64,000 bases of DNA, taken from positions 62,001 to 126,000 of the forward strand of contig JACEFZ010028134.1 of NCBI GenBank assembly GCA_014155875.1. The letters run 5' to 3'. This DNA comes from Cepaea nemoralis (Eukaryota > Mollusca > Gastropoda > Stylommatophora > Helicidae). How positions within the stretch are numbered: position 1 is the first letter of the stretch; each line of letters begins with the position of its first letter. The notes beneath the pieces are model-generated. The model was not told the DNA's origin and did no database searches. It saw only the letters and a list, made by a program, of their open reading frames with translations. A program made the translations under genes and the position numbers. Below, piece by piece: positions 5,936 to 64,000 of this stretch.

Positions 5936-5939
5936 GTGT

Positions 5940-38640: not shown

Positions 38641-38644
38641 TTTT

Positions 38645-40718: not shown

Positions 40719-40724
40719 ACTGCT

Positions 40725-40888
40725 CCCTATTATAAAATCACAACATGGATTTTTCAGAGCTGCGCACTTGACTTTTCCTGAAATAAAAGAACAAATATTG
40801 GCCCATACCAAAGGGTATCTTTCCCTTCTCCCTGAAAATGTTTTACAAGTTATTGTTTCCTCTGTGTAGTCTTGTTTATTCACTTGTC
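40725..40888 (-). pseudogene. Gmr1-like protease fragment, copy 2
   Basis: Contains DYTEETITCKTFSG, YPLVWANI and GKVKCAALKNPCCDFIIGS, closely paralleling DYTGRHITCRTFSG and GKVKCAALTNPCCDVIVGN in the 25-kb element. Confidence 0.85.
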
Positions 40889-40889
40889 A

Positions 40890-41250
40890 CCTCATCTCAT
40901 CATGTTCCTCTTGTACTTTGTGGTGTCAAAGTGAAGTATAAACAGCACAGCGGGAGAGGGCTCCCTCTTAGGGGCTTCACGTACTGATATTCCCATGGAC
41001 TCTGCTATTCCCTCCGTCCATCGTTTATGTGGTCGGCCTCTTCCTCTGGTCATCTGGTCAGTACATCATTGCTTCTTGTGGTATACTGTTAGTTGGTAAC
41101 CTACTTACATGGCCAAACCATTTAACTTGTTGCCTTCTAATAAAATCTAGCGCTGCTATAACCCCCACTTTAGTCCTGATTTCTTCATTTCTGATCTTAT
41201 CTCTCCTTGATACATTGAGTAGTATTCTCAGGAATCACTAGTGATTGACG
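40890..41250 (-). pseudogene. LINE 3' coding fragment, copy 2
   Basis: Counterpart of 5,940-6,325 without the short internal duplication; it interrupts the Gmr1-like protease. Confidence 0.7.
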
Positions 41251-41800
41251 AAGCCTAATAATCATGGCACCCATGTCATGCAAGACCATTGCCATTTTCC
41301 CATTAACCAGACCTTAATGGATTTTTTTAAATTTTCCATTTATATGTACCGACATATTACTTTCCTCATCGGGTGTAGGAATGGTATGCCCATATGATAG
41401 GATGCAATCTGTATGAAACATTTTACAAGTTTTGCATGTAGCTGAGGTAAAATTATTGATGCAATTACCTAACTCTTACTCATCTACCTCACTTATTGAA
41501 TGACTGCTAACGACAGCAGATGCATTCACATTCTCAAGTTTTAATTGCTTTCTGCTGTCACATCCAGGCTGAATATGTCCATACGCCTTGTCAAAAAACA
41601 ACAACAAAATTATGTAAACTTGTATATTGGTTTTCCTTTTGTTGTTGGCTAGCTACAATTTTTTAAATAATATTTGTATTGAGGATTTCTGTCACACATC
41701 TCATTCTCACCATGTTTATGGGTACATTCTTTACATTTTATTATCCTACTTATTTTTAATCTTCTGTTGTTAAATCTTTTGTTATTCTCATATGGCTTGT
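41251..41800 (-). pseudogene. Gmr1-like gag/protease relic, copy 2
   Basis: Counterpart of 6,326-6,960. It holds one copy of the protease-site segment that is doubled in copy 1. Confidence 0.8.
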
Positions 41801-41954
41801 CCTCTATACAACGCTATCATTTTTATTCATTCTTCTCAGATATTGGCCACTACGTTTTCTTCATGTCATCCAGTAATTGTAAAAGTATGTCTCTTTGCGA
41901 TCATAGACTTTGCTGTGTGGATGTTTACTGCCACATTCTCCATTACAGAATTCT

Positions 41955-42310
41955 GGAAGAAACAGAAAAAAAAGTAAAAGTCAGGATTGTTTTATTTCTG
42001 GAACATACAGAAAAAAAAAAAGTAAAAGTCAGGTTTATTTCATTTCTGGAACATATGGAAACAAGTAAATGTCAGGCTTGTTTCATTTCTGGAACATACA
42101 GAAGAAAAAAAAGTAAAAGTAAAGTTTATTTCATTTCTGGAATATACAGAAAAAAAAGTAGAAGTCAGGGTTGTTTCATTTCTGAAACATACAGAAATAA
42201 AAGTCGTGCTTGATTCATTTCTGGAACATACAGGAAAAAAAGTAAAAGTTAGGCATGTTTCATTTTTGGAACATACAGAAAAAAGTAAACATCAGGCTTG
42301 TGTCATGTCT
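41955..42310. repeat. About 44-bp minisatellite, about 8 units
   Basis: Same unit as 7,100-7,975, uninterrupted here. Confidence 0.85.
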
Positions 42311-42439
42311 GCTTTAGTCAAGTTAAGGAAGCAAGTAACCAGCATCTTTGGCTTTGAGGATGGTGAGATGGTAGTTTCATAATTCCCTGACATACTGAGT
42401 TGAGTGTTGGATATTGATTCAAATAATATCATCATCATC

Positions 42440-42985
42440 TTGTACCTTGCGATGTTGAGGTGAAGCATAAACATCGAGAGAGAGCGTTTATGGGCTTCAT
42501 ATATTGTGATTTCCATGGAATTGTTATTCCCTCTGTACATCGTTTTCATGGTCGGCCTCTTCTTCTGGTTCTATTTTATCTGTACATCATTGCTTGTTGT
42601 AGTATGCTGTCAGCTGGTAGCCTAGGTATGTGGCCAAACCATTTCACTTGCTGTTTTCTAATGAGAAAGTTATAGGAAACCAATAATAACTGTTCAAAAT
42701 ACCCTAGACTTGTCCTTTAGGAAAAAGAATATGGGAAATAGAATATACTTTTTTGGCATTCACTCTTTTTAACTCTAGTATAGTCCACACATATACTACA
42801 ACTTCTAGTAGCACTGGACTGATTTTTGCATGTGGAATAGTTTTCTCTATTACGAGTCCCTCGCTATCAGGCGAACCCACTCCGACTTCTGAGATACTTG
42901 TAATTTATATCCCCAAGTCAAGGATGAGAAGTCAGCATCAGCACACTGGAAGTTTAAGAGTGAGTGCTCTTATCCAAAATAGACA
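42440..42985 (-). pseudogene. LINE fragment (42,440-42,665) and family C SINE (42,745-42,985)
   Basis: Counterparts of 8,085-8,330 and 8,407-8,690. The SINE has a 54-bp deletion between CAGCAT repeats. Confidence 0.6.
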
Positions 42986-43529
42986 TGCATGTAAACGTAT
43001 GAGAAGATGATGCAGATAGTAAAGCTAGTGCACAGCAGAAATCTAGGACACTGACGACTTCTTCCCCAAGTTCCACAGTGAGCCAACAGGTTATAATATG
43101 GTCATCCATATCTGGCCTGTGATCAGTTAATAAACAGAAAACTCCAGAAAGTTGAAGGCAAGAGAAGAAAGAGCTGACAACTAAAAAGATGTTCTGACAA
43201 CTTTAAAGACTATACTTGTGACAAAACCGACACACAGATAAGAGTTGCTTAGGTTAAGAAATAATTGAAAATACTGACTACAAACACAAAACTTTCATGG
43301 ATCAACTTATGTCAGAATAGGATAGGATAATAAGGGTTCTGAAGAGTTGATGGGGAAACATGGATTTGGGAATTGGGATAATGAACAAAAATGGGAATTT
43401 GTGTGCAGTTAATCAGTGTCACAGGAGGAAGTGTTTTTTCCAGATAAAAATTCAGAAAGCAACATAAGTATCACAGACCACAATACAGAAAATCAAACAT
43501 CTGTATTAACAAGACATTTTGATTATCTC

Positions 43530-43750
43530 TACACGACGTAAATGTGTCTCTTTCTTCTTCTTGTATATTATGGTCTAGTTTCATTAGCCTGTTTCAGGCA
43601 ATCATCATTAGTTACCATGGCAGTCCAAGGAATTCATAACATTTATCTCAGGAACCACATATCTATTGCTTCTAAGCTCTTCCTAATTTGTTTATTTACG
43701 TTCCAATATTCACTGCCATACAGGAACACAGGTTCTATATAAACACCGCT
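43530..43750 (-). pseudogene. LINE C-terminal fragment
   Basis: Minus strand: YIEPVFLYGSEYWNVNKQIR and KSLEAIDMWFLR. It begins within about 10 bp of the exon 5 donor of the saposin gene, in the intron. Confidence 0.75.
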
Positions 43751-43757: not shown

Positions 43758-43898
43758 CTATGATTAGTGTGTAATTGCCAGGAAACCATTGCTCACATGG
43801 TCCCTGTGTCGGGTCACAGTTAGGATCTGGTTGTGCAGCAAGTTTCAAGTTTTGGCTGTAGTTGCCAGCATTCTGGGGCTCATGCAGAAATGCACTTT
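43758..43898 (-). CDS. Saposin-like gene, exon 5
   Basis: 141 bp. Acceptor TTTATTACAG before it, donor GTCAGTAAG after it. Encodes AFLHEPQNAGNYSQNL and QPDPNCDPTQGPCEQWFPG, a Cys/Pro-rich segment of the domain after the saposin fold. Enters and leaves in phase 1. Confidence 0.9.
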
Positions 43899-46800
43899 CT
43901 GTAATAAACAAATAAAATACTGCTTAAGTAACATGTTTTATTACATTTCTTTTCAGCTCACTCACTTTGAACTCAAGCGTAGTCCATAAATACTACTTCT
44001 AATAGCACTGGACTGAATTTTGCATTATTATTAGCTTTCCCTGTTACCAGGATCCCCCGCTATTAGGCAAACCCACTCCGACTTCAGGGGTACTTGTAAT
44101 TTACATCCCCAAGAACGAGAAGTCAACAATTTAGTCCAGCTGAATCATGTGGAGGTTGAACCCCCTACCTCAGCACACTGGATGTTTAAGAACAAGAGCT
44201 CATACATTTGCCATGCTGACCTCTGTGTCTTAAATGATATGTTGTTTTTGTGACAGCTTTAGCATTTTCTCTCAACTATTTACAATGTATTTGTTAGAAC
44301 TAGTACCAACACTTCTGAATCAAGTTCATTTACTTAATGAAGGTTTACCCAGTTATGAACTTATTTCATCTACCCACTGTATGTCTAACCATTTCAGACC
44401 TTACTTCATCAACACATGAATGTCTAGCCAGTTACACACCTAGTTCATCCAAGCAATGAATGTCTAGCCAGTTCCACATCTAGTTCATCCAATTAATGAA
44501 TGTCTAGCCAGGTCCACACCTAGTTCATCCAACCAATGAATGTTTAGCCAGTTCCACACCTAGTTCATCCAACCAATGAATGTCTAGCCAGTTCCACACC
44601 TAGTTCATCCAACCAATGAATGTCTAGCCAGTTTCACACCTAGTTCATCCAACCAATGAATGTCTAGCCAGGTCCACATCTAGTTCATCCAACCAATGAA
44701 TGTTTAGCCAGTTGCACATCTAGTTCATCCAACCAATGAACGTTTAGCCAGCAGTTGCCCCACCAAAAGCGTGTCTATCTGATCATATATCTCAGTATAC
44801 TCATTTTCTTCAGTAAGACAATGGCATCATAGTTACACAGCTCTGGTTACACCAGGTGTGCATTAGGTGGTGGTCTTACTGCTCATTTCTTGTTGTGCTT
44901 GGCAGGACAAATGGTTTTGCTTCAATTTCAAATTCATTTTGGTGAAAGATATTTCTCCGTGTTCACATACTCTGTGCAATATTCTTTCTGCAGAATGCAT
45001 ACTGATATGTGCAAGTGCACATGTTTGCACATGCTTTTTCTTTATTAATCTGGTATTTTTTTTTAATTGCTGAGCAGAATTTGTGTTTTGTTTGTTTACA
45101 GCAGAGCTGTTGTATTTGTGCCTTTTAGCTGACCCATCCAACTTCTTCCTGGCATATGTTGACCTGGTTAGCTACTCTGCACATGAACAGATATCTACAT
45201 ATTTGGGAAGACAAAAGATGCTGCCTCACCAAGTGGTATTCCATCAACAGTGCGGACAGCAACAACAATTTCACCAGTTCCTGTGCCATTTTTGGAAACA
45301 TAGAAAAATGTGATTGCCCGTTCTCCTGGAAATAAATAATTGATATTTTTCAAGTGAAATAATTTCAAAAATAGAATTCATGGAAAGTTATAACAAGACA
45401 AGAGTGTTTAATTTATAAAAACATCCATCAACTTGTACAGAACAGCAATTATTTTTATAGCTTTTTTTTCACATTTACACCTGTCTAAGAACACACATGT
45501 AGCTTGTATGATGTTTTTTTAATGCTTTGATTTTTTTTTTAACTATATTAAATTTGCCAGCATTTTGTAAATGTAGTTTCTTCAAATAAAACAAATTTTT
45601 AATCAGTTAAACCCAATCTATCCTATACATTCAAAATTATAGATCTACCTTTTAGATTGTAAACTTTGACAAATCAAATACAATCTACACCAGATGATCA
45701 AGCACCAAATACCCAATACACCTAATGTTGAAATGGAATCCTTTACTTACTTAACATAATGAAATAGTGCACATCCTTTACTTACTTAACATAATGAAAT
45801 AGTGCATATCCTTTAATTTCTTAACATAATGAAAAAGTGCACATCATTTAATTTCTAAACATAATGAAATAGTGCACATCATTTAATTTCTAAACATAAT
45901 GAAATAGTGCTCATCATTTACTTACTTATAATGAAATAGTGCACATTCTTTACTTAACATAATGAAATAGTGCACATCCTTTACTCAACATAATGAAATA
46001 GTGCACATCATTTACTCACTTAACATAATGAAATAGTGCACATCATTTACTCACTTAACATAATGAAATAGTGCACATCCTTTACTTACTTAACATAATG
46101 AAATAGTGCACATCCTTTAATTTCTTAAAATAATGAAATAGTGCACATCCTTTACTTACTTAACATAGTGAAATAGTGCACATCCTTTACTTACTTAACA
46201 TAATCAAATAGTGCACATCCTTTAATTTCTTAACATAATGAAATAGTGCACATCATTTACTTACTTAACATAATGAAATAGTGCACATCATTTAATTTCT
46301 TAACATAATGAAACAGTGCACATCCTTTACTTACTTAACATAATGAAATAGTGCCCATCATTTACTTACTTAACATAATGAAATAGTGCACATCCTTTAA
46401 TTACTTAACATAATGAAATAGTGCACATCCTTTACTTAATATAATGAAGTAGTGCACATCCTTTACTTAACAATTAAATAGTGCACATCCTTTACTTAAT
46501 ATAATGAAATAGTGCACATCCTTTACTTACTTAACATAATGAAATAGTGCACATCCTTTACTTAACGTAATGAAATAGTGCACAACCTTTAATTACTTAA
46601 CATAATGAAATATGATTTGCTGGGTCTGCACCGCTGGGTGGGGTATTGGTGCACAAAAGGTTGGTGTGGTCGGGGACTTGTGGGATCATGTGAATAGTGC
46701 TGAAGAACAGCTAAAATATCCTGGCCTGGAGAGAATGGTGCAGCAGCGAGTGACCAGAGGATCTCAGCACTCAGAAGGAAGGCCAGATGGACACATATTC

Positions 46801-49800
46801 AGACTCAAACCAGTACATCAGTATTGGGACTCTTCGCTGATTGTTGAAGCTGAGGATGGAGCACATATGGGAATGCCATAAGTGCTGTTATACAGATTCA
46901 GCTCAGCTGATGACTCAACTTGCCAGATGATCATAATGAAAAATAAATTACTGTTTAAAACATTGTCAAGCACAAAATAATTAACAGGCCCTTTTCACAA
47001 TCCCCGAGACATGGGACACGTGGTGCTAGACATGTTTTATCAAGACCAACCGACATTTGGGGGCTAATGTGGTCAATATCATGTTGGCTGTGTTTACCTC
47101 CCAATAAATGTGCAGGTACCTATTTCAGCTTCAAGGATTTGTCTAATGACTTGAGTTTATGTTGTGCGATTTCTGCAGTATGTACCTGACAAGATGCAGC
47201 GAAATTTGTCAGGTAATAAATCGTACTGCTTAGTTGGTCTGTGTCTTCATACAGTGTACTGTTTAGTTGGTCTGTGTCTTCATACAGTGTACTGTTTAGT
47301 TGGTCTGTGTCTTCATACAGTGTACTGTTTAGTTGGTCTGTGTCTCCATACAGTATACTGTTTAGTTTGTTCATGTCTCCATACAGTGTACTGTTTAGTT
47401 GGTCTGTGTCTCCATACAGTGTACTGTTTAGTTGGTTCATGTCTCCATACAGTGTACTGTTTAGTTGGTCTATGTCTCCATACAGTGTACTGTTTAGTTG
47501 GTCTGTGTCTCCATACAGTGTACTGTTTAGTTGGTTCATGTCTCAATACAGTGTAAAGTTTAGATGGTCTGTCTCCATACAGTGTACTGTTTAGTTGGTC
47601 TGTGTCTTCATACAGTGTACTGTTTAGTTGGTTCATGTCTCCATACAGTGTACAGTTTAGATGGTCTGTCTCCATACAGTGTACTGTTTAGTTGGTCTAT
47701 GTCTCCATACAGTGTACTGTTTAGTTGGTCTGTGTCTCCATACAGTGTACTGTTTAGTTGGTCTGTCTTCATACAGTGTACTGTTTAGTTGGTCTGTCTT
47801 CATACAGTGTACTGTTTAGTTGGTTCATGTCTCCATACAGTGTACTGTTTAGTTGGTCTGTGTCTCCATACAGTATACTGTTTAGTTGGTTCATGTCTCC
47901 ATACAGTGTACTGTTTAAGTTGGTTCATGTCTCCATACAGTGTACTGTTTAGTTGGTCTGTCTTCATACAGTATATGTTTAGTTGGTCTGTGTCTCCATA
48001 CAGTATACTGTTTAGTTGGTTCATGTCTCCATACAGTATACTGTTTAGTTGGTTCATGTCTCCATACAGTGTACTGTTTTGTTGGTCTATGTCTCCATAC
48101 AGTGTACTGTTTAGTTGGTCTATATCTCCATACAGTGTACTGTTTAGTTGGTTCATGTCTCCATACAGTATACTGTTTAGTTGGTCTATGTCTCCATACA
48201 GTATACTGTTTAGTTGGTCTGTGTCTCCATACAGTATACTGTTTAGTTGTTTCATGTCTCCATACAGTATACTGTTTAGTTGGTTTATGTCTCCATACAG
48301 TGTACTGTTTTGTTGGTCTATGTCTCCATACAGTGTACTGTTTAGTTGGTCTATGTCTCCATACAGTGTACTGTTTAGTTGGTTCATGTCTCCATACAGT
48401 ATACTGTTTAGTTGGTCTATGTCTCCATACAGTGTACTGTTTAGTTGGTCTGTGTCTCCATACAGTGCACTGTTTAGTTGGTTCATGTCTCCATACAGTG
48501 TACTGTTTAGTTGGTCTGTGTCTCCATACAGTGTACTGTTTAGTTGGTTCATGTCTCCATACAGTATACTGTTTAGTTGGTTCATGTCTCCATACAGTGT
48601 ACTGTTTAGTTGGTCTGTGTCTCCATACAGTGTACTGTTTAGTTGGTTCATGTCTCCATACAGTATACTGTTTAGTTGGTTCATGTCTCCATACAGTGTA
48701 CTGTTTAGTTGGTCTGTGTCTCCATACAGTATACTGTTTAGTTGGTTCATGTCTCCATACAGTGTACTGTTTAGTTGGTTCATGTCTCCATACAGTGTAC
48801 TGTTTAGTTGGTTCATGTCTCCATACAGTGTACTGTTTAGTTGGTTCATGTCTCCATACAGTGTACTGTTTAGTTGGTCTGTGTCTTCATACAGTGTACT
48901 GTTTAGTTGGTTCATGTCTCCATACAGTGCACTGTTTAGTTGGTCTGTGTCTTCATACAGTGCACTGTTTAGTTGGTTCATGTCTCCATACAGTGTACTG
49001 TTTAGTTGGTTCATGTCTCCATACAGTGTACTGTTTAGTTGGTCTGTGTCTCCATACAGTATACTGTTTAGTTGGTCTGTCTTCATACAGTGCACTGTTT
49101 AGTTGGTCTATGTCTCCATACAGTGTACCATTTAGTTGGTCTGTGTCTCCATACAGTGTACTGTTTAGTTGGTCTGTCTTCATACAGTGTACTGTTTAGT
49201 TGGTCTCTGTCTCCATACAGTATACTGTTTGGTCTGTCTTCATACAGTGCACTGTTTAGTTGGTCTGTCTTCATACAGTGCACTGTTTAGTTGGTCTGTC
49301 TTCATACAGTGCACTGTTTAGTTGGTCTATGTCTCCATACAGTGTACTGTTTAGTTGGTCTGTGTCTCCATACAGTGTACTGTTTAGTTGGTATGTCTTC
49401 ATACAGTGTACAGTTTAGATGGTCTGTCTCCATACAGTGTACTGTTTAGTTGGTCTGTCCTCATACAGTGCACTGTTTAGTTGGTCTATGTCTCCATACA
49501 GTGTACTGTTTAGTTGGTCTGTGTCTCCATACAGTGTAGCTGTTTAGTTGGTCTGTCTTCATACAGTGTACTGTTTAGTTGGTCTATGTCTGCATACAAT
49601 GTACTGTTTAGTTGGTCTGTGTCTCCATACAGTGTACTGTTTAGTTGGTCTGTGTCTCCATACAGTGTACTGTTTAGTTGGTCTGTGTCTCCATACAGTG
49701 TACTGTTTAGTTGGTCTGTGTCTCCATACAGTGTACTGTTTAGTTGGTCTGTGTCTCCATACAGTGTACTGTTTAGTTGGTCTGTGTCTCCATGCAGTGT

Positions 49801-52800
49801 ACTGTTTAGTTGGTCTATGTCTTCATACAGTGTACTGTTTAGTTGGTCTATGTCTGCATACAGTGTACTGTTTAGTTGGTCTATATCTTTATACAATGTA
49901 TTGGTGTGGAAGGATTTAATGGTAGTAGCTGTCTCCTCAGGTCAACTCAGTACAGGGCACTTGAAGATGGTGATTAACTGTTTCCTCTTCCTGTCTATCT
50001 CAATGGTTGCATGTTGTCTTCTTAGTCTACATTTTGTGCTCTGGTCCCTGGGGTGTGGGATTAGAGAAGGCTTGTGACTTGTTCATCATCTACTGCCTTT
50101 AACAAATGAAACAACCACAGGGAAGTCTCTCTGGCACTGCAGCGGCACATCCTGAACAAAAGACAAGGAACTAAGAACATACAAGAACAGACTTTACAAC
50201 CATAAGAAGAAAAGACAAGGAACTAAAAATATACAAGAACAGACTTTACAGCCATAACATGTGATCACCTTGAGGTCCAGCTTGTGGATTTACAATTATC
50301 TTAGTGATTGTTGCATCTCCCCCATCAAAAACAGTGCACACTTTCAGAAGTTCACAGAAGTAAATTGGGTCAAGGTCAGCCCTGTAACAATAAATACACA
50401 TTGTATATTCATAATGTTCACATGATTATCATTATTATCCTATAAGATAGAATAACGCGTAATAAATTAATGTACATAAATAATACAGAAGAAGAAAGAA
50501 CAGTGTTAAAAAAGAGTTTACAGATATGAAGTGACTACTCAAAAACAAAAACACATATTGATCAAATATTAGTATTAAAACATTGGTAACTTGAACTACA
50601 AGATTAAAAGTAAATTAATAATATAATTAAAAGAAAAAGAAGCCCTGTAACAATAAATACACATTGTATATTCATAATGTTCACATGATTATCATTATTA
50701 TCCTATAAGATAGAATAACGCGTAATAAATTAAAGTAAATAAATAATACAGAAGAAGAAAGAACAGTGTTAAAAAAGAGTTTACAGATATGAAGTGACTA
50801 CTCAAAAACAAAAACACATATTGATCAAATATTAGTATTAAAACATTGGTAACTTGAACTACAAGATTAAAAGTAAATTAATAATATAATTAAAAGAAAT
50901 AACATTATAAGTTAAATAGGGATAGAACTGGTGATAATCGTTCGAATGTGAGCAAGAAATAAAGTGAAAATATGAGCCAATCAAAAATACACAATTACCA
51001 TGAGTGGCCAACTGTGAAAGAGTTGTTTTTTCACTACTTCTTTCCCTGAAAGAACTATTTTATGCAGCTGGCTAACTACATGGCTATACTGGTCCAATAG
51101 GTAAATAACTTCCATTCATGTAAAATCTCCCATGTGTTACTGAAACCCAGGAAGTGGGAAAACAGTAACACCCATATAGAATGGATTTTACCTGGCAACT
51201 AAGGAAGGGCGGCATGGGGCTGGCTACTTCATCCCATACAAAATGTTAGTGGTAATATTCAGCCAATCGTGAACAACTCTACAGAAAGGCAAAGAAAAAT
51301 AACCAGTCAAGTTTAAAGAGAACTCATTCTCTTTCAGAATAATTTCTAAAACAAACACAGGGAGAAGCGGATTAAAGACAGAGATTCGTACACAGGAAGA
51401 CATGGAAGGAACTACATCAGATAGCAAAGGACAGGAGGGTCTGGGTAAGATAGTTGTCGGCCTGTGCTCATTTGAAGGATAAAAAGTTAGTTGCATATCT
51501 TTTACAGGACGTCACAGTTAACCCCATTATTTCTTAGCTGTTTGAGATTTCATGGCAAGTTTTATGTTCAGTAGTTTGCTTTGTGAACCATCAGCACTCG
51601 TACCGTTGTATGAAATACCGGCACAAGGCAGTCTACTTCCAATTCTCCCGCAGCTGTGTTTTGAATGCAGGATCTTACCCCATCACCACAGTACTGTTTG
51701 TGATTGGATAAAAGGCAGGAGAAAAATTTTGGGGTGGACAGAAGAAAGTCAGACAAAAATACAGATGTATCTTGTTATTTTGGACAAAATATTAAAGTTA
51801 ATATGAATAAACATATCTCAATCCACTCACTGTTCAATAAGTTTAACAAACTCCTCGATACCCGCAATGTCACACAGAACATTGCAGACGACACCAATAA
51901 CTTTGCTTCCAGTCTTCTCCTCTAAAGCATTACACAGCAACTCACAAGATCCCACTATGCCTGTATCTGTAAAGAAATGTCCTAGGCAGTCTTCACATTG
52001 ATACTTATATTTCTTTATTTTATTGTTTTAAGTTCATTTTTTTAAATTCCATTTCTTTTGATTTGCTAAATTGTTAACTGCCTACTACTTTTAGCAAATA
52101 ATTTTGTTTCCTCAAGTACAACCTTTGCTAAAATGTACAATGTAACATACCACTACAGTGAATGCAGAAAAATAGAATAATGTTTTGTATAAATATAAGT
52201 GAATTTTCAGTCACAAGTCCTAGAAGACTTGAGAAACCAAATGCTGTAAAATATAACGTTGTGACTTTCATGTCTATTAATAATGCCAAAATAACAATAG
52301 CAATAACAAACAAATAAAAATAAGTATAGATTCTGCAAAAGACTTGCTACTTGATGAAAAGATAAAGGGCCAAATGGTATATATCCGTCACACCTGTTCG
52401 TACTGCTATGACTCCCACTTCAAACAGGCAGGTTGCTTCGACAGCCCTATTCATGTTTCCAGCAATATCATATCAGAGCATTGTGTTGCAAATTACTCAC
52501 ACAAACTTGAAGAGGTAATCAAGACAAAGTTCAGACAAAATGTCTTTCCTCTGTCCCTTCCTAACTATGAAGTTAGGTAAATTTCTCTCTTCCTCACCAC
52601 TTCTCAGCTCAGAACATTATCTTATACCAATGGCCTCAGCTTCGGTTGGCTTGGAAGTGTACTGTTAGAGAAAGAAAACACTGCCACTGCTGTTCTTGGA
52701 CTACTGCGGTTTAGCCATCACCTGCACCAGGCAGGTACTTTGCATATCTTAGGTCCTATCGTGGTGGCCCACTGAAAAGATTCCATATCTTTTGCTAGTT

Positions 52801-55800
52801 CAGCCACACACATTTTCATGCCCAAGAAGTCGTCAATTGTCCATCTGCATGCTGGTTTACTCCTGCCTTTTATTCCAGAAGCACACTTCCAGCACTGTTC
52901 TGTCCAAACTACCGTGCTATTTAATATGGCCAAAGTATTTCAGTTTCCAAATCACCATGCTGTTTACGAGCCAGTTCCCTTTGATGTTCAGATCATGTAG
53001 AATGTGAAAATAATTCTTCTTCTTGGACCATATTGTAGGAACTCTTCTGTAACATTTTGATTCAAAAGCACTGATTTTCTTCTTTATTGATTGCAATATG
53101 ATCCACAACTTACAACCATCTGTTGCCAATCAAACATTATTGTTCTCAACAAATTCACTTTTAGTCTGGTGGTTTTGTGCCATAGGTTCCTAATATTGCT
53201 TTAAAAAAGTTACTTGCATTTCCTTTACATGACGTAACAGTCAATTCCAGCATTGTTTAGCTGTTTGTGATGCTGGACAAGTTTACATTCATGTTTACAT
53301 TCAGTAGTTTGCCAGTGCTTTCTGAACCAGCATTCCTACCATTGTATGGAATCCAACGCAAGGCTTCCAAATCATCCGCAGCTGTGTTTCGAACGTGGTA
53401 TGCGGGATTATGAATTGCATTTGTAACCCCTTTGGCACACAGCCAGTACTATTGCTTAACCTTTGCATTAATAAACTAGTGATATATTGACTATGCAGCT
53501 ATGTTGAACACCTGCTAAGAGGAACATCAGACTGCAACTAGAGGAAGTCTGCTTTATGGTGCATCAGTCCATAGTCAGATGAATATATGAAATCAAGAAT
53601 AAACTTTATTGTACCCAAGACATTCCCATACACGCCCCATCCCCTTCACAGGTAACCAATGAGGAGATCCCACGTTGTTGGTACCAATGGCAGTCTGATT
53701 AAACGTTTGCCTGAATGTTTCCTACGCCATGAGTGCCATCTGCTCACTCTACAGTGAATCAGCCTCTCCAGGTGTGGATCCTCTTGTCTGTTTTGCTGCA
53801 CTTTCCACTGGATCCATGACAGTCTTCACTACATCAACCCTGTCATAACCTAGCTCACTGTCTAAAAGAGAGGCAGCAGCAAGTCTATCAGCCTGTTCAT
53901 TTCCTTGCACATCCACATGCCCTGAGTAGAAAATACAAGATATGCTCTTCACCTTCATCTTACCCTGAGTAATATATAACTGAAGAAGGCAATCTGTTAT
54001 ACAAGGGCATCAATCCACCATAAAAAAACTACTGAAGAAGGCCACACACAATAATCAGATATCTCACTTGTGCTTACTCAGGATAATATTCAAAAGGACA
54101 TTCAAGGCTTCATCAGTAAACTGTAAACATAGTGGACACAGGTCAACACTGACTTTCTGTGATGTTACTGGCCTATAGCTTTGCTTTCCCTGAAATCTGA
54201 GCGACTTTTGTATGCCAGAAAGGCCACCGCTGACCGTTAAGATGGAAAAGAAAACTGCAAAAACCTGCAGGAAGTAATACAATACATTTTAAAATTAAGA
54301 TAGTACAACATCAATTATTGGCACTGTATAATTATAACAAGATAAATGTATCAGCAAATAAAGTAAATGTTCATAAACAATACAGGATTACAGCCCATTA
54401 CTGCTAATTATTTTCCTTATGGCTTTCAAGTAAATTCTACAATTTACTATTCACAATCTATTAATACAAACAAATTTTTCCTGAATCATCGCCATCCAAA
54501 TGTTTTCATTCTCAGCTGAATTTGGATTTTAATTGGTAAAGTCAGGCACAGCTGTTGAAGTGTGAACTGTTTGGCCACCGTGTGTTCTAGGCCAAAGAAT
54601 GAATCATGAACAACTCTACACAAAGGGCTTGGCATGAGTTGGTTGTGAGCTGATGCTCCAATGATAGATTAAATTCATAAGAATAAGAAAAAAATATATG
54701 CTCTTCAATTATTTTTAACTTTTATACACAGGAGGCAATAATATAAAGAGAATTCTCATGTGACGTACATTTAACTTTATGTGTAAGAAGATGACGGAGA
54801 CAAAACAGTTGGAACATATACAAGGTCCTACAAAGGACATGCAGTATTAACAAGAAAACTATTAGTATAATCATCAAAGATTGCAATAATTTAATAATCT
54901 ATGAGGTCTCCACAATGAAGGTTGGCTGCAATGGATCTACAACATTGTCTGTCTCTTTCTTGATTGTACATAAAATTCTGTCATACTGCTGTTCGTTCAT
55001 CTATTAATGATTATTTCTCACTTGTATTATTGTGATAATATAATAGGGCACTCTTCCGAATAACGATCCCAAATTATTTAGTGTAAAAAGTATCCCTTAC
55101 AGGGCCTCATTAGTTGATGTCGATCATTTCTGGTTCAGCATGTCGTGGACTGCTAGACCGATCGATGAATGCAATAAATATTTCCTGAGCCCGGAGGGCC
55201 CTCACTGTCGTTGGAGTGTATATCTATATCTTGTACATACGTATTTCCACATCTAACTGATAGGTATACACTCCGATGACAGTGAGGGCACTCCGGACCC
55301 AAAATATTTATTGCATCCCTCGATCGGCCTAACAGCCCGCGACACTCAATAACTGTATATTTCACCTCTGAACGAGCATAATCACCTAATGAGGCCCTGT
55401 AAGGGATTGTGGCTCTATTAATACAACTTTATACTTTATATTATAACCAATTAAATTATTCATTATTATTATTTTACACTATTAGTATTAGTGAATTATT
55501 TATTAGTATTTCTATTTTATTATTAACTTAATTACATGTCCAAGAAAAGATAAACGTTTAGCTTCATTTCATAGTTGAAAGTTGTTCTTCTACTTTTACT
55601 TTTTTTAGTATCTTCCTGTATTTAATGTATTATAACTTTAACGTCTCTGCCTTTTTAGGTTCACTCATCTGGACAAAGACAAATATTAGTAATTACTAAT
55701 ACTTATTGTATTATTATTATATTGCATCTTTCAACAACGTGAATTAATCATCAAACGTAAACAATAACAATAACAAATGGCACAGAGATGAACTCCATAC

Positions 55801-55815
55801 CGACTTCCTGTTCAT
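43758..55815 (-). CDS. Saposin-B-domain secreted protein gene, exons 0-5 (3' end not found)
   Basis: The one clear host gene. Exons on the minus strand: 55,801-55,815 (candidate start), 54,078-54,264, 51,831-51,966, 50,269-50,381, 45,230-45,325, 43,758-43,898. Every internal boundary is AG/GT, and the reading phase matches at each join (0, 1, 2, 1, 1). The product opens with a signal-peptide-like hydrophobic stretch (VFAVFFSILTVSGG). A saposin-B fold with paired cysteines follows (LCPLC, SCELLC, VCNVLC, FCELLKVC). After that comes a beta-rich domain (YVSKNGTGTGEIVV, QPDPNCDPTQGPCEQWFPG). Saposin-like proteins bind lipids or membranes, usually in lysosomes or the secretory route. The exact role of this one is unknown. 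Introns hold satellites and LINE/SINE debris. The last exon lies beyond 43,758 and was not located; the direct duplication may have displaced it. Confidence 0.9.
43945..44223 (-). mobile_element. SINE-like repeat, family C, in intron 4
   Basis: Fourth member of the family at 33,115-33,410, more diverged. Confidence 0.6.
44335..44755. repeat. 40-bp minisatellite, about 9-10 units, in intron 4
   Basis: Unit parts: AATGAATGTCTAGCCAGTTC and CACACCTAGTTCATCCAACC. Early units are more divergent than later ones. Head-to-tail without spacers. Confidence 0.93.
45060..45175 (-). mobile_element. Decayed (GAA)n-type SINE relic in intron 4
   Basis: Retains TTTACAGCAGAGCTG and GCTGACCCATCCAACTTCTT, corresponding to the core of the element at 1,596-1,741. 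Confidence 0.6.
45230..45325 (-). CDS. Saposin-like gene, exon 4
   Basis: 96 bp. Acceptor ATTTCCAG, donor GTGAGG. Encodes ITFFYVSKNGTGTGEIVVAV and RTVDGIPL. Phase 1 in and out. Confidence 0.92.
45736..46614. repeat. 35-bp satellite, about 24 units, in intron 3
   Basis: Unit parts: ACTTAACATAATGAAATAG and TGCACATCCTTTACTT. Some units are shortened by about 4-8 bp. The array ends where a LINE fragment begins. Confidence 0.94.
46612..46900 (+). pseudogene. RNase-H LINE 3' scrap in intron 3
   Basis: Plus-strand peptides GLERMVQQRVTRGSQHSEGR and similar correspond to the segment after RNase H at 13,265-13,480. Confidence 0.7.
46901..47227. other. Intronic, nothing recognised
   Basis: A stretch at about 47,177-47,213 has flanking AG and GT dinucleotides on the plus strand but no coding support. 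Confidence 0.4.
47228..49902. repeat. 33-bp (and 30-bp) satellite, about 80 units, in intron 3
   Basis: Unit parts: TGTACTGTTTAGTTGGTC and TGTGTCTCCATACAG. Variants end TCATGTCTCC or TGTCTTC (30-bp form). Each unit has ACAGT-GT-ACTGT, a near-palindrome. The unit length is a multiple of three and gives frames of more than 400 codons on both strands with 10-11-residue periods. This is judged to be a by-product of the repeat. Confidence 0.95.
49903..50268. other. Intronic, nothing recognised
   Basis: Contains a short tandem pair around 50,140-50,250 (AAGACAAGGAACTAA, TACAAGAACAGACTTTACA). Confidence 0.5.
50269..50381 (-). CDS. Saposin-like gene, exon 3
   Basis: 113 bp. Acceptor TTGTTACAG, donor GTGATC. 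Encodes ADLDPIYFCELLKVC (last Cys pair of the saposin fold) and FDGGDATITKIIVNPQAG. Only one copy in the window; the mirrored arm has the acceptor but not the exon. Confidence 0.92.
50382..50905. repeat. 262-bp tandem duplication in intron 2
   Basis: The segment beginning CCCTGTAACAATAAATACAC at 50,380 is repeated from 50,642. The repeat boundary falls at the acceptor of exon 3, so a decoy acceptor (ACAGGGC on the minus strand) sits about 260 bp before the real one. The same unit is involved in the fold-back at 61,170-61,660. Confidence 0.85.
51495..51720 (-). mobile_element. Old family B SINE relative, intron 2
   Basis: Minus strand ends GTCCTGTAAAAGATATGCAA as in the family B SINEs and contains CTAAGAAATAATG and GGTATTTCATACAACGGTA. 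Mirrored at 60,100-60,330 and repeated at 62,250-62,475. Confidence 0.65.
51831..51966 (-). CDS. Saposin-like gene, exon 2
   Basis: 136 bp. Acceptor TTCTTTACAG, donor GTGAGT. Encodes GIVGSCELLCNALEEKTGS and VVCNVLCDIAGIEEFVKLIE, the middle helices of the saposin fold. Mirrored intact at 59,856-59,991; a third copy at 62,593-62,728 has a stop. Confidence 0.93.
52620..53160 (-). pseudogene. LINE post-RT fragment in intron 1
   Basis: Minus strand: SIKKKISAFESKCYRRVPTI, LNIKGNWLVNSMVIWKLKYF, then RWTIDDFLGMKMCVAELAKD after a frame change. This is the typical C-terminal tail of an APE LINE. Mirrored at 58,665-59,205 and repeated at 63,370-63,900. Confidence 0.8.
53205..53430 (-). mobile_element. 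Old family B SINE relative, intron 1
   Basis: Minus strand ends with TGACGTCATGTAAAGGAAATGC-type sequence matching the 3' end of the family B SINE. Mirrored at 58,405-58,625. Confidence 0.6.
53620..53985 (-). pseudogene. RNase-H LINE 3' end in intron 1
   Basis: Minus strand: ISCIFYSGHVDVQGNEQADR (RNase H end motif), then the conserved tail with GTNNVGS..WL and GRVWEC-like residues. Mirrored at 57,840-58,215. Confidence 0.82.
54078..54264 (-). CDS. Saposin-like gene, exon 1 (signal peptide core and first Cys pair)
   Basis: 187 bp. Acceptor CTTCCTGCAG, donor GTAAGC. Encodes VFAVFFSILTVSGGLSG and KVSVDLCPLCLQFTDEALNV. There is no ATG in frame at its 5' end, so a start exon must lie upstream (see 55,801-55,815). 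Mirrored at 57,561-57,747. Confidence 0.9.
54283..55091. other. Intron 0/upstream sequence, nothing recognised
   Basis: AT-rich and identical in the mirrored arm. A short stretch (54,590-54,660) resembles 51,260-51,290 (GAACAACTCTAC). Confidence 0.45.
55092..55407. mobile_element. Fold-back (MITE-like) element, about 315 bp
   Basis: Ends TCCCTTACAGGGCCTCATTA and its exact complement. The two halves are imperfect inverted repeats almost to the middle (GCAATAAATATTT, CCCTCACTGTC, GGAGTGTATA). Possible TA target site (TA left, TT right). It lies inside the larger palindrome, so its mirror is at 56,420-56,735. Confidence 0.85.
55801..55815 (-). CDS. Saposin-like gene, candidate start exon 0
   Basis: ATG AAC AGG AAG TCG then a GTATGG donor. 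It ends in phase 0, as exon 1 requires, and supplies a basic n-region (MNRKS) to the hydrophobic core VFAVFF. The ATG is about 100 bp from the palindrome axis. Two short upstream ATG frames (mirror positions about 55,966-55,993) lie between axis and start, which weakens the call. Confidence 0.5.
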
Positions 55816-56011
55816 GATGTTTGTGTGTGGCCTACAACTAGTTTCATTTCACGGGTCATATGTTAGATTCATATGCTCTACTGCGTTATCTCTGATTTGG
55901 CTGCACTTCCCTTAAGGGAAGTGCAGCCAAATCAGAGATAACGCAGTAGAGCATATGAATCTAACATATGACCCGTGAAATGAAACTAGTTGTAGGCCAC
56001 ACACAAACATC
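55816..56011. promoter_or_regulatory. Palindromic region between two mirrored start codons
   Basis: 196 bp, perfectly palindromic about 55,913/55,914. If the structure is real, this would serve as a shared divergent promoter and 5' UTR for the mirrored saposin genes. No TATA box was recognised. Confidence 0.4.
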
Positions 56012-56419
56012 ATGAACAGGAAGTCGGTATGGAGTTCATCTCTGTGCCATTTGTTATTGTTATTGTTTACGTTTGATGATTAATTCACGTTGTTGAAAGA
56101 TGCAATATAATAATAATACAATAAGTATTAGTAATTACTAATATTTGTCTTTGTCCAGATGAGTGAACCTAAAAAGGCAGAGACGTTAAAGTTATAATAC
56201 ATTAAATACAGGAAGATACTAAAAAAAGTAAAGTAGAAGAACAACTTTCAACTATGAAATGAAGCTAAACGTTTATCTTTTCTTGGACATGTAATTAAGT
56301 TAATAATAAAATAGAAATACTAATAAATAATTCACTAATACTAATAGTGTAAAATAATAATAATGAATAATTTAATTGGTTATAATATAAAGTATAAAGT
56401 TGTATTAATAGAGCCACAA

Positions 56420-56735
56420 TCCCTTACAGGGCCTCATTAGGTGATTATGCTCGTTCAGAGGTGAAATATACAGTTATTGAGTGTCGCGGGCTGTTAGGCC
56501 GATCGAGGGATGCAATAAATATTTTGGGTCCGGAGTGCCCTCACTGTCATCGGAGTGTATACCTATCAGTTAGATGTGGAAATACGTATGTACAAGATAT
56601 AGATATACACTCCAACGACAGTGAGGGCCCTCCGGGCTCAGGAAATATTTATTGCATTCATCGATCGGTCTAGCAGTCCACGACATGCTGAACCAGAAAT
56701 GATCGACATCAACTAATGAGGCCCTGTAAGGGATA
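56420..56735. mobile_element. Fold-back element, mirrored copy
   Basis: Reverse complement of 55,092-55,407. Confidence 0.85.
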
Positions 56736-57839
56736 CTTTTTACACTAAATAATTTGGGATCGTTATTCGGAAGAGTGCCCTATTATATTATCACAATAAT
56801 ACAAGTGAGAAATAATCATTAATAGATGAACGAACAGCAGTATGACAGAATTTTATGTACAATCAAGAAAGAGACAGACAATGTTGTAGATCCATTGCAG
56901 CCAACCTTCATTGTGGAGACCTCATAGATTATTAAATTATTGCAATCTTTGATGATTATACTAATAGTTTTCTTGTTAATACTGCATGTCCTTTGTAGGA
57001 CCTTGTATATGTTCCAACTGTTTTGTCTCCGTCATCTTCTTACACATAAAGTTAAATGTACGTCACATGAGAATTCTCTTTATATTATTGCCTCCTGTGT
57101 ATAAAAGTTAAAAATAATTGAAGAGCATATATTTTTTCTTATTCTTATGAATTTAATCTATCATTGGAGCATCAGCTCACAACCAACTCATGCCAAGCCC
57201 TTTGTGTAGAGTTGTTCATGATTCATTCTTTGGCCTAGAACACACGGTGGCCAAACAGTTCACACTTCAACAGCTGTGCCTGACTTTACCAATTAAAATC
57301 CAAATTCAGCTGAGAATGAAAACATTTGGATGGCGATGATTCAGGAAAAATTTGTTTGTATTAATAGATTGTGAATAGTAAATTGTAGAATTTACTTGAA
57401 AGCCATAAGGAAAATAATTAGCAGTAATGGGCTGTAATCCTGTATTGTTTATGAACATTTACTTTATTTGCTGATACATTTATCTTGTTATAATTATACA
57501 GTGCCAATAATTGATGTTGTACTATCTTAATTTTAAAATGTATTGTATTACTTCCTGCAGGTTTTTGCAGTTTTCTTTTCCATCTTAACGGTCAGCGGTG
57601 GCCTTTCTGGCATACAAAAGTCGCTCAGATTTCAGGGAAAGCAAAGCTATAGGCCAGTAACATCACAGAAAGTCAGTGTTGACCTGTGTCCACTATGTTT
57701 ACAGTTTACTGATGAAGCCTTGAATGTCCTTTTGAATATTATCCTGAGTAAGCACAAGTGAGATATCTGATTATTGTGTGTGGCCTTCTTCAGTAGTTTT
57801 TTTATGGTGGATTGATGCCCTTGTATAACAGATTGCCTT

Positions 57840-58215
57840 CTTCAGTTATATATTACTCAGGGTAAGATGAAGGTGAAGAGCATATCTTGTATTTTCTACT
57901 CAGGGCATGTGGATGTGCAAGGAAATGAACAGGCTGATAGACTTGCTGCTGCCTCTCTTTTAGACAGTGAGCTAGGTTATGACAGGGTTGATGTAGTGAA
58001 GACTGTCATGGATCCAGTGGAAAGTGCAGCAAAACAGACAAGAGGATCCACACCTGGAGAGGCTGATTCACTGTAGAGTGAGCAGATGGCACTCATGGCG
58101 TAGGAAACATTCAGGCAAACGTTTAATCAGACTGCCATTGGTACCAACAACGTGGGATCTCCTCATTGGTTACCTGTGAAGGGGATGGGGCGTGTATGGG
58201 AATGTCTTGGGTACA
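57840..58215 (+). pseudogene. RNase-H LINE 3' end, mirrored copy
   Basis: Counterpart of 53,620-53,985. Confidence 0.82.
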
Positions 58216-58664
58216 ATAAAGTTTATTCTTGATTTCATATATTCATCTGACTATGGACTGATGCACCATAAAGCAGACTTCCTCTAGTTGCAGTCTGATG
58301 TTCCTCTTAGCAGGTGTTCACATAGCTGCATAGTCAATATATCACTAGTTTATTAATGCAAAGGTTAAGCAATAGTACTGGCTGTGTGCCAAAGGGGTTA
58401 CAAATGCAATTCATAATCCCGCATACCACGTTCGAAACACAGCTGCGGATGATTTGGAAGCCTTGCGTTGGATTCCATACAATGGTAGGAATGCTGGTTC
58501 AGAAAGCACTGGCAAACTACTGAATGTAAACATGATGTAAACTTGTCCAGCATCACAAACAGCTAAACAATGCTGGAATTGACTGTTACGTCATGTAAAG
58601 GAAATGCAAGTAACTTTTTTAAAGCAATATTAGGAACCTATGGCACAAAACCACCAGACTAAAA

Positions 58665-59205
58665 GTGAATTTGTTGAGAACAATAATGTTTGATTGGCAA
58701 CAGATGGTTGTAAGTTGTGGATCATATTGCAATCAATAAAGAAGAAAATCAGTGCTTTTGAATCAAAATGTTACAGAAGAGTTCCTACAATATGGTCCAA
58801 GAAGAAGAAATATTTTCACATTCTACATGATCTGAACATCAAAGGGAACTGGCTCGTAAACAGCATGGTGATTTGGAAACTGAAATACTTTGGCCATATT
58901 AAATAGCACGGTAGTTTGGACAGAACAGTGCTGGAAGTGTGCTTCTGGAATAAAAGGCAGGAGTAAACCAGCATGCAGATGGACAATTGACGACTTCTTG
59001 GGCATGAAAATGTGTGTGGCTGAACTAGCAAAAGATATGGAATCTTTTCAGTGGGCCACCACGATAGGACCTAAGATATGCAAAGTACCTGCCTGGTGCA
59101 GGTGATGGCTAAACCGCAGTAGTCCAAGAACAGCAGTGGCAGTGTTTTCTTTCTCTAACAGTACACTTCCAAGCCAACCGAAGCTGAGGCCATTGGTATA
59201 AGATA
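58665..59205 (+). pseudogene. LINE post-RT fragment, mirrored copy
   Basis: Counterpart of 52,620-53,160. Confidence 0.8.
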
Positions 59206-62200
59206 ATGTTCTGAGCTGAGAAGTGGTGAGGAAGAGAGAAATTTACCTAACTTCATAGTTAGGAAGGGACAGAGGAAAGACATTTTGTCTGAACTTTGTC
59301 TTGATTACCTCTTCAAGTTTGTGTGAGTAATTTGCAACACAATGCTCTGATATGATATTGCTGGAAACATGAATAGGGCTGTCGAAGCAACCTGCCTGTT
59401 TGAAGTGGGAGTCATAGCAGTACGAACAGGTGTGACGGATATATACCATTTGGCCCTTTATCTTTTCATCAAGTAGCAAGTCTTTTGCAGAATCTATACT
59501 TATTTTTATTTGTTTGTTATTGCTATTGTTATTTTGGCATTATTAATAGACATGAAAGTCACAACGTTATATTTTACAGCATTTGGTTTCTCAAGTCTTC
59601 TAGGACTTGTGACTGAAAATTCACTTATATTTATACAAAACATTATTCTATTTTTCTGCATTCACTGTAGTGGTATGTTACATTGTACATTTTAGCAAAG
59701 GTTGTACTTGAGGAAACAAAATTATTTGCTAAAAGTAGTAGGCAGTTAACAATTTAGCAAATCAAAGAAATGGAATTTAAAAAAATGAACTTAAAACAAT
59801 AAAATAAAGAAATATAAGTATCAATGTGAAGACTGCCTAGGACATTTCTTTACAGATACAGGCATAGTGGGATCTTGTGAGTTGCTGTGTAATGCTTTAG
59901 AGGAGAAGACTGGAAGCAAAGTTATTGGTGTCGTCTGCAATGTTCTGTGTGACATTGCGGGTATCGAGGAGTTTGTTAAACTTATTGAACAGTGAGTGGA
60001 TTGAGATATGTTTATTCATATTAACTTTAATATTTTGTCCAAAATAACAAGATACATCTGTATTTTTGTCTGACTTTCTTCTGTCCACCCCAAAATTTTT
60101 CTCCTGCCTTTTATCCAATCACAAACAGTACTGTGGTGATGGGGTAAGATCCTGCATTCAAAACACCGCTGCGGGAGAATTGGAAGTAGACTGCCTTGTG
60201 CCGGTATTTCATACAACGGTACGAGTGCTGATGGTTCACAAAGCAAACTACTGAACATAAACTTGCCATGAATCTCAAACAGCTAAGAAATAATGGGGTT
60301 AACTGTGACGTCCTGTAAAAGATATGCAACTAACTTTTTATCCTTCAAATGAGCACAGGCCGACAACTATCTTACCCAGACCCTCCTGTCCTTTGCTATC
60401 TGATGTAGTTCCTTCCATGTCTTCCTGTGTACGAATCTCTGTCTTTAATCCGCTTCTCCCTGTGTTTGTTTTAGAAATTATTCTGAAAGAGAATGAGTTC
60501 TCTTTAAACTTGACTGGTTATTTTCTTTGCCTTTCTGTAGAGTTGTTCACGATTGGCTGAATATTACCACTAACATTTGTATGGGATGAAGTAGCCAGCC
60601 CCATGCCGCCCTTCCTTAGTTGCCAGGTAAAATCCATTCTATATGGGTGTTACTGTTTTCCCACTTCCTGGGTTTCAGTAACACATGGGAGATTTTACAT
60701 GAATGGAAGTTTATTTACCTATTGGACCAGTATAGCCATGTAGTTAGCCAGCTGCATAAAATAGTTCTTTCAGGGAAAGAAGTAGTGAAAAAACAACTCT
60801 TTCACAGTTGGCCACTCATGGTAATTGTGTATTTTGATTGGCTCATATTTTCACTTTATTTCTTGCTCACATTCGAACGATTATCACCAGTTCTATCCCT
60901 ATTTAACTTATAATGTTATTTCTTTTAATTATATTATTAATTTACTTTAATCTTGTAGTTCAAGTTACCAATGTTTTAATACTAATATTTGATCAATATG
61001 TGTTTTTGTTTTTGAGTAGTCACTTCATATCTGTAAACTCTTTTTTAACACTGTTCTTTCTTCTTCTGTATTATTTATTTACTTTAATTTATTACGCGTT
61101 ATTCTATCTTATAGGATAATAATGATAATCATGTGAACATTATGAATATACAATGTGTATTTATTGTTACAGGGCTTCTTTTCTTTAATTATATTATTAA
61201 TTTACTTTAATCTTGTAGTTCAAGTTACCAATGTTTTAATACTAATATTTGATCAATATGTGTTTTTGTTTTGAGTAGTCACTTCATATCTGTAAACTAC
61301 TCAAAAACAAAAACACATATTGATCAAATATTAGTATTAAAACATTGGTAACTTGAACTACAAGATTAAAAGTAAATTAATAATATAATTAAAAGAAAAA
61401 GAAGCCCTGTACAATAAATACACATTGTATATTCATAATGTTCACATGATTATCATTATTATCCTATAAGATAGAATAACGCATAATAAATTAATGTAAA
61501 TAAATAATACAGAAGAAGAAAGAGAACAGTGTTAAAAAAGAGTTTACAGATATGAAGTGACTACTCAAAACAAAAACACATATTGATCAAATATTAGTAT
61601 TAAAACATTGGTAACTTGAACTACAAGATTAAAAGTAAATTAATAATATAGTTAAAAGAAATAACATTATAAGTTAAATAGGGATAGAACTGGTGATAAT
61701 CGTTCGAATGTGAGCAAGAATAAAGTGAAAATATGAGCCAATCAAAAATACACAATTACCATGAGTGGCCAACTGTGAAAGAGTTGTTTTTTCACTACTT
61801 CTTTCCCTGAAAGAACTATTTTATGCAGCTGGCTCAACTACATGGCTATACTGGTCCAATAGGTAAATAACTTCCATTCATGTCAAATCTCCCATGTGTT
61901 ACTGAAACCCAGGAAGTGGGAAAACAGTAACACCCATATAGAATGGGTTTTACCTGGCAACTAAGGAAGGGCGGCATGGGGCTAGCTACTTCATCCCATA
62001 CAAAATGTTAGTGGTAATATTCAGCCAATCGTGAACAACTCTACAGAAAGGCAAAGAAAAATAACCAGTCAAGTTTAAAGAGAACTCATTCTCTTTCAGA
62101 ATAATTTCTAAAACAAACACAGGGAGAAGAGAATTAAAGACAGAGATTCGTACACAGGAAGACATGGAAGGAACTACATCAGATAGCAAAGGACAGGAGG

Positions 62201-62249
62201 GTCTGGGTAAGATAGTTGTCGGCCTGTGCTCATTTGAAGGATAAAAAGT

Positions 62250-62475
62250 TAGTTGCATATCTTTTACAGGACGTCACAGTTAACCGCATTATTTCTTAGC
62301 TGTTTGTGATTTCATGGCAAGTTTTATGTTCAGTAGTTTGCTTTGTGAACCATCAGCACTCGTACCGTTGTATGAAATACCGGCACAAGGCAGTCTACTT
62401 CCAATTCTCCCCGCAGCGGTGTTTTGAATGCAGGATCTTACCCCATCACCACAGTACTGTTTGTGATTGGATAAA
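62250..62475 (-). mobile_element. Old family B SINE relative, third copy
   Basis: Counterpart of 51,495-51,720. Confidence 0.6.
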
Positions 62476-62592
62476 GGCAGGAGAAAAATTTTGGGGTGGA
62501 CAGAAGAAAGTCAGACAAAAATACAGATGTATCTTGTTATGTTGGACAAAAAATTAAAGTTAATATGAATAAACATATCTCAATCCACTCAC

Positions 62593-62728
62593 TGTTCAAT
62601 AAGTTTAACAAACTCCTCGATACCCGCAATGTCACACAGAACATTGCAGACGACACCAATAACTTTGCTTCCAGTCTTCTCCTCTAAAGCATTTCACAGC
62701 AACTCACAAGATCCCACTATGCCTGTAT
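62593..62728 (-). pseudogene. Saposin-like exon 2, third copy, with premature stop
   Basis: Same splice sites as exon 2 at 51,831-51,966, but a T-to-A change turns the second Cys of SCELLC from TGT into TGA (about 62,694). Both other copies have Cys. Confidence 0.88.
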
Positions 62729-63369
62729 CTGTAAAGAAATGTCCTAGGCAGTCTTCACATTGATACTTATATTTCTTTATTTTATTATTTTAAGTTCATT
62801 TTTTTAAATTCCATTTCTTTTGATTTGCTAAATTGTTAACTGCCTACTACTTTTAGCAAAGAATTTTGTTTCCTCAAGTACAACCTTTGCTAAAATGTAC
62901 AATGTAACATACCATTACAGTGAATGCAGAAAAATAGAATAATGTTTTGTATAAGTGAATTTTCAGTCACAAGTCCTAGAAGACTTGAGAAACCAAATGC
63001 TGTAAAATATAACGTTGTGACTTTCATGTCTATTAATAATGCCAAAATAACAATAGGCAATAACAAACAAATAAAAATAAGTATAGATTCTGCAAAAGAC
63101 TTGCTACTTGATGAAAAGAAGGGCCAAATGGTATATATCTGTCACACCTGTTCGTACTGCTATGACTCCCACTTCAAACAGGCAGGTTGCTTCGACAGCC
63201 CTATTCATGTTTCCAGCAATATCATATCAGAGCATTGTGTTGCAAAATACTCACACAAACTTGAAGAGGTAATCAAGACAAGGTTCAGACAAAATGTCTT
63301 TCCTCTGTCCCTTCCTAACTATGAATTTAGGTAAATTTCTCTCTTCCTCACCACTTCTCAGCTCAGAAC

Positions 63370-63900
63370 ATTATCTTATACCAATGGCCTCAGCTTCAGT
63401 TGGCTTGGAAGTGTACTGTTAGAGAGAGACAACACTGCCACTGCTGAGAACAATCTTGGACTACTGCGGTTTAGCCATCAACTGCACCAGGCAGGTACTT
63501 TGCATATCTTAGGTCCTATCGTGGTGGCCCACTGAAAAGATTCCATATCTTTTGCTAGTTCAGCCACACACATTTTTATGCCCAAGAAGTCGTCAATTAT
63601 CCATCTGCATGCTGGTTTACTCCTGCTTTTTATTCCAGAAGCACACTTCCATCACTGTTCTGTCCAAACTACCGTGCTATTTATTATGGCCAAAGTATTT
63701 CAGTTTCCAAATCACCATGCTGTTTACGAGCCAGTTCCCTTTGATGTTCAGATCATGTAGAATGTGAAAATGTTTCTTTTTCTTGTACCATATTGTAGGA
63801 ACTCTTCTGTAACATTTTGATTCAAAAGCACTGATTTTCTTCTTTATTGATTGCAATACGATCCACAACTTACAACCGTCTGTTGCCAATCAAACATTAT
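63370..63900 (-). pseudogene. LINE post-RT fragment, third copy
   Basis: Counterpart of 52,620-53,160. Confidence 0.8.
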
Positions 63901-64000
63901 TGTTCTCAACAAATTCACTTTTAGTCTGTTTGGTGGTTTTGTGCCATAGGTTCCTAATATTGCTTTAAAAAAGTTACTTGCATTTCCTTTACAGGACCTA

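Follow-up and report, generated by a model that had tools for sequence, protein, structure and literature searches.

The stretch of DNA analysed here, 64,000 nucleotides from the land snail Cepaea nemoralis (GenBank assembly GCA_014155875.1, contig JACEFZ010028134.1, positions 62,001 to 126,000; hereafter the window), contains a near-perfect palindrome of 10.8 kb that covers part of a saposin/countin-like gene. Judged from the sequence, this palindrome is most likely not a real genomic feature, and we put at roughly 90% the probability that it is an assembly error in which two haplotypes of one locus were joined via a spurious fold-back copy. A preliminary description of the window had left the choice between a fold-back artefact and a young inverted duplication with a shared promoter. 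Three observations favour the former over the latter: the arms differ almost only by one-base insertions and deletions (indels), a third, haplotype-like copy follows the palindrome, and this copy runs on without a turn at the position that corresponds to the axis.

A palindrome followed by a third copy

In a self-BLAST of the window, the segment 50,515-61,298 matched itself in inverted orientation as a single match, with 99.67% identity over 10,800 columns. Mirror symmetry over 10.8 kb cannot have originated by chance. The palindrome that had been placed at 50,643-61,289 is therefore present in the contig, with true limits that are slightly wider. Its nearly identical arms and loop-free axis at 55,913/55,914 were likewise recovered: an axis scan and reading of the sequence revealed 200 of 200 matching bases, zero spacer and no loop (axis 1, Table 1).

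The right arm (A2′, the inverted copy of the left arm A1) is followed by a third copy, A3, which the preliminary description had missed. A3 has the orientation of A1, shares 97.6% identity with the left arm in the self-BLAST and begins at 61,296, which places a second inverted junction (junction 2) at 61,296-61,298. It extends beyond the end of the window to window coordinate 66,855 (C26176:128,855, where C26176 denotes the contig), the equivalent of the axis, and past this position continues into sequence absent from both A1 and A2′. The order in the contig is left flank, A1, inverted A2′, A3, right flank. At both turns the contig reverses strand and returns to nearly the position it has just left (0 bp away at axis 1 and about 19 bp at junction 2, against an applied limit of 200 bp), as expected for a fold-back.

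We searched the assembly (3,472,891,610 bases in 26,579 contigs, with C26176 spanning 837 kb) for segment A (query 54,000-55,900), the left flank (50,000-50,514, 515 bases) and the right flank (2,001 bases), scoring the best 40 of 4,369, 6,310 and 16,523 candidates, respectively, so that the resulting counts are lower bounds. Among these, segment A was present only on C26176, as A1, A2′ and A3 (the latter as two overlapping pieces), and each flank had one full-length copy, the remaining flank matches being partial and belonging to interspersed repeats. The best 40 candidates per search included no further contig carrying another allele of either flank, as expected if two haplotypes overlap within a single contig.

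A3 also carries an exact 163-bp tandem duplication (window 65,542-65,704 / 65,704-65,866; C26176:127,542-127,866), where A1 and A2′ have one unit each. Either a haplotype variant or a further seam left by the stitching of the contig could account for it.

Polarised differences among the three copies

The differences were polarised over 50,641-55,913 with A3 as the third copy, one of the two identical 163-bp A3 units being left out. Within this stretch, A1 and A2′ are distinguished by 2 substitutions and 12 one-base indels. Changes private to A2′ comprise no substitutions and 11 one-base indels (10 deletions, 1 insertion), located in A/T runs; three additional one-base deletions lie in the partial 263-bp tandem unit of A2′. 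In contrast, 67 substitutions and 18 indels, eight of them longer than one base, are private to A3, and the mutation spectra of A2′ and A3 differ (Fisher p = 4e-7). Of the 69 sites with substitutions, A2′ agrees with A1 at 67. Substitution divergence between A1 and A3 amounts to 1.27% (67 of ~5,272), with 37 substitutions in the first 2.6 kb (~1.4%). This range of ~1.3-1.4%, compared to a heterozygosity of ~1.42% reported for the sequenced individual (PMC8022989), fits two haplotypes. Taken by its changes, A2′ resembles A1 with errors of the read type added, and A3 resembles another allele or a paralogue.

The one-base indels are unevenly distributed. Within 1.2 kb of junction 2, a limit set after the indel positions had been seen, lie 10 of 14 one-base indels of A2′ (p = 1e-4) and 6 of 10 of A3 (p = 0.01), and the equivalent stretch of A1 has no private one-base indel (0). 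Substitutions of A3 do not cluster there (10 of 67, versus 13.7 expected). Reads that truly reach the left flank would polish A1 but not the surroundings of junction 2.

Two other inverted repeats were seen on this contig. One is a pair at 13,977-18,550 / 23,155-27,744 with 95% identity and gypsy-type and LINE-type open frames; it looks genuine, because its differences are mostly substitutions (193 mismatches, 17 gap openings). The other, at C26176:143,116-143,975 / 144,433-145,292, is an 860-bp inverted repeat with 100% identical arms; its 457-bp spacer resembles a portion of a reverse transcriptase, and the repeat is either a retroelement or another fold-back. A protein search for retroelements gave 1,589 hits; the 120 listed share 32-55% identity and did not help to place the species.

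Assembly fold-back versus duplication in the genome

On the reading as an assembly error, each haplotype would in truth carry the left flank, A and the right flank once. The contig would track haplotype 1 up to 55,913 and then fold back into A2′, the identical stretch on the opposite strand. After the second turn at 61,296-61,298, it would resume within A on haplotype 2, represented by A3, and run on into upstream sequence. Both turns could stem from one read that passed three times along a ~5.4-kb molecule, or from two fold-back reads. We infer that no DNA molecule in the snail contains the two junctions and that A3 is the other haplotype, and the physical kind of fold-back is proposed on the same footing.

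The published account of the C. nemoralis draft (PMC8022989) gives 3,490,924,950 bases in 28,537 contigs (26,580 longer than 10 kb), built from ~23x PacBio continuous long reads with Flye, Canu and wtdbg2 (-edge-min 2, -rescue-low-cov-edges). The draft was then purged (purge_dups), merged (Quickmerge) and polished, and 12.9% duplicated BUSCOs remain. Low-coverage edges together with the merging of several assemblies could have retained a fold-back. The polymerase read N50 of 18,196 bases in the draft data (PMC8022989) suffices for three passes of a 5.4-kb molecule, and the existence of such a read here is a conjecture.

Fold-back reads are a described long-read artefact, found mainly with Nanopore sequencing, and many of them have no sequence at the turn (PMC12870357). 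Like such reads, the contig presents forward sequence followed immediately by its own reverse complement, with no bases at axis 1; unlike them, the structure sits in a finished contig and a third pass follows. Chimeric palindromes have also been described for amplified DNA (PMC6218980). Both papers supply precedents and not a demonstrated cause for the structure seen here. The contig likewise resembles an unpurged haplotype overlap at the join of a merged assembly, with two copies ~1.3-1.4% apart and flanks that are found once, but differs from such a join by the inverted copy between the two haplotypes.

Several observations weigh against a fold-back. The survey of such reads reports almost none in its three PacBio samples (PMC12870357). 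Neither turning point is error-rich: no difference between the arms occurs within 319 bp to either side of axis 1, and the initial 103 bases of A3 after junction 2 are identical to the second tandem unit of A1. A1 itself has 2 private substitutions and one private one-base indel, at which A2′ equals A3 and for which errors in A2′ do not account; notwithstanding these, the differences between the arms resemble uncorrected read errors, as expected for a fold-back copy. One-base indels could also persist in truly duplicated but poorly polished DNA. Reading of the sequence at axis 1 and junction 2 did not reveal an adapter-like insert at either, and a 45-base PacBio adapter sequence, with up to 3 mismatches allowed, was not found in the assembly, so that the missed-adapter route, though possible, left no trace. 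Finally, a survey of 286 kb of the 837-kb contig (matches of at least 150 bp and at least 95% identity within 30 kb) did not find a second near-perfect zero-spacer palindrome, and the artefact is thus not demonstrated as recurrent.

Among the alternatives, a germline inverted triplication of ~5.4 kb fares best, although we consider it improbable. It would have arisen in vivo by fork template switching, either as origin-dependent inverted-repeat amplification (ODIRA) or as microhomology-mediated break-induced replication (MMBIR), with one copy taken from the homologue and the spacer-free 10.8-kb palindrome somehow kept intact. A1-A2′-A3 between once-found flanks indeed has the direct-inverted-direct (DUP/INV/DUP) order of duplication-inverted triplication-duplication (DUP-TRP/INV-DUP) structures, of ODIRA products (PMC10766186) and of small inverted triplications (PMC13334657). 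Moreover, two haplotype-1 copies plus one haplotype-2 copy fit the 2:1 ratio of single-nucleotide polymorphisms described for ODIRA recombined with the homologue (PMC10766186), and because this process also yields a 2:1 ratio, the haplotype pattern alone is not decisive. Junction 2, with a 3-base inverted match and 16 bases between its halves, would suit such an event.

The junctions as a pair suit it less well. ODIRA is described with inverted repeats of ~5 nt that lie 40-80 nt apart (PMC10766186), and small inverted triplications of yeast have a median spacer of 30 bases and junctions of 6 bases (PMC13334657), whereas axis 1 has zero spacer. ODIRA would require short inverted repeats with a spacer at both junctions; junction 2 has the 3-base match, and axis 1 lacks a spacer. 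A search for inverted repeats of at least 8 nt, shorter repeats not being searched, found none in the 214 bases that lead up to the axis in A1 and two pairs in A3 near the axis position, one of which spans it (10 nt, 90%, 143 nt apart). In addition, A2′ departs from A1 almost solely by one-base indels that are denser near junction 2, and unlike in the described triplications the private changes of the inverted copy resemble sequencing errors. Long perfect palindromes are, furthermore, reported as unstable (PMC10766186, PMC7999016); if real, a spacer-free long germline palindrome would run counter to present knowledge of how unstable palindromes are.

Still less probable is a mixed case, in which axis 1 alone is a fold-back and one haplotype truly carries the inverted duplication at junction 2, with A3 as a truncated pseudogene copy. 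In its favour, exon 3 of A3 has an in-frame stop codon (TGA, 62,694-62,696) in place of the cysteine codon (TGT) that A1 and A2′ read, at a cysteine kept in 10 of 10 homologues compared, and exon 4 is not adjacent to A3. The stop is either a null allele or an error. Against the mixed case, A3 continues unbroken into the right flank like an ordinary allele, and junction 2 has a higher density of one-base indels in its vicinity than axis 1. Had the inverted pair been old, A2′ should have diverged from A1 as well, which its substitution sites do not show.

The saposin/countin-like gene around the axis

A protein search with the joined exons 2-4 returned 15 of 28 candidates at E <= 0.001, with a Candidula unifasciata protein of 81% identity at the top, and homology extends over several exons. 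The homologues are named 'Saposin B-type domain-containing' and 'countin-1'. The spliced exons 2-4 matched no Pfam family up to E 0.1, and the saposin label therefore depends on these names. Solved structures gave no match up to E 1, and Rfam gave no match at gathering score within the window. Exons were placed by tblastn with land-snail and other homologues and are numbered after these homologues; their coordinates are among the matches listed (Table 1). Part of the gene does lie in the arms, as had been described, but what had been called exons 1-2 are exons 2-3, and the former exon 3 is exon 4.

Table 1 Features of the palindrome and of the saposin/countin-like gene in window coordinates.
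Feature	Position	Strand	Basis and remarks
A1, left arm	50,515-55,913	+	self-BLAST; left side joined to the flank carrying exon 4
Axis 1, zero-spacer inverted junction	55,913..55,914	.	200/200 bases
A2′, right arm, inverted copy of A1	55,914-61,298	-	self-BLAST, arm alignment
Junction 2, A2′ flips to A3	61,296-61,298	.	3-base overlap; two 3-base matches 16 bases apart in A1
A3, third direct copy	61,296-64,000 in the window, on to 66,855	+	self-BLAST and next contig stretch
Two 263-bp tandem units	50,378-50,899	.	junction 2 falls in the equivalent of unit 1
Exon 2	54,076-54,270	-	tblastn; mirrored at ~57,555-57,749 (+)
Exon 3	51,830-51,967	-	tblastn; mirrored at ~59,855-59,992 (+); A3 copy 62,592-62,729
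Exon 4	50,267-50,383	-	tblastn; outside the arms
Exon 5	45,222-45,326	-	tblastn
Exon 6	43,762-43,902	-	tblastn
Exon 7 (last known exon)	41,882-41,953	-	tblastn; second copy 7,016-7,099

Two divergent 5′ ends sharing one palindromic promoter had been proposed, with a candidate start codon ~100 bp from the axis. A strict scan for exon 1 from exon 2 to the axis (ATG, no stop, and before GT the final G that the Candidula protein predicts) found only one frame of 5 residues, starting from 55,463. Extended over ~77 kb on the right side, this strict scan listed 121 candidates, of which not one was convincing. When the Candidula-expected base was not required, 28 in-phase candidates appeared between exon 2 and the axis, including a hydrophobic 14-residue frame from 54,874, so that exon 1 may yet lie in the arms. 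The frame that starts with ATG 55,815, on the minus strand and 98 bp away from the axis, has 7 residues, and its GT is in phase with exon 2 only without the Candidula-expected base; the proposed start codon gains no positive support from this relaxed fit, and no exon 1 resembling that of the homologue was recognised beside the axis. A young inverted duplication with two divergent genes at a shared palindromic promoter is accordingly the least probable alternative and hardly credible: near-identical arms, gene copies that diverge from the axis and the 28 relaxed candidates, among them ATG 55,815, would agree with it, but the only strict in-phase candidate has 5 residues, the mirrored copy does not reach exon 4, and a third copy exists.

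Should the palindrome be an artefact, which is likely, gene models built on this contig would encounter three copies of exons 2 and 3, one of them inverted and one with a stop codon. The case also illustrates that such errors can be recognised without data beyond the assembled letters, by polarising differences via a third copy and comparing the spectra of indels and substitutions.

Additional features were noted around the gene. The two copies of exon 7 sit in direct duplications (~89-95%) between 617-9,374 and 35,801-43,684, and a 33-bp tandem array of ~82 copies occupies 47,223-49,900, between exons 4 and 5. Outside the snail assembly, a 1,284-base contig (source label lgn) encodes a protein of 83 amino acids (P0015) that corresponds to exon 2 plus intron-edge residues with ~76% identity, as though the data set of that contig contained snail DNA.

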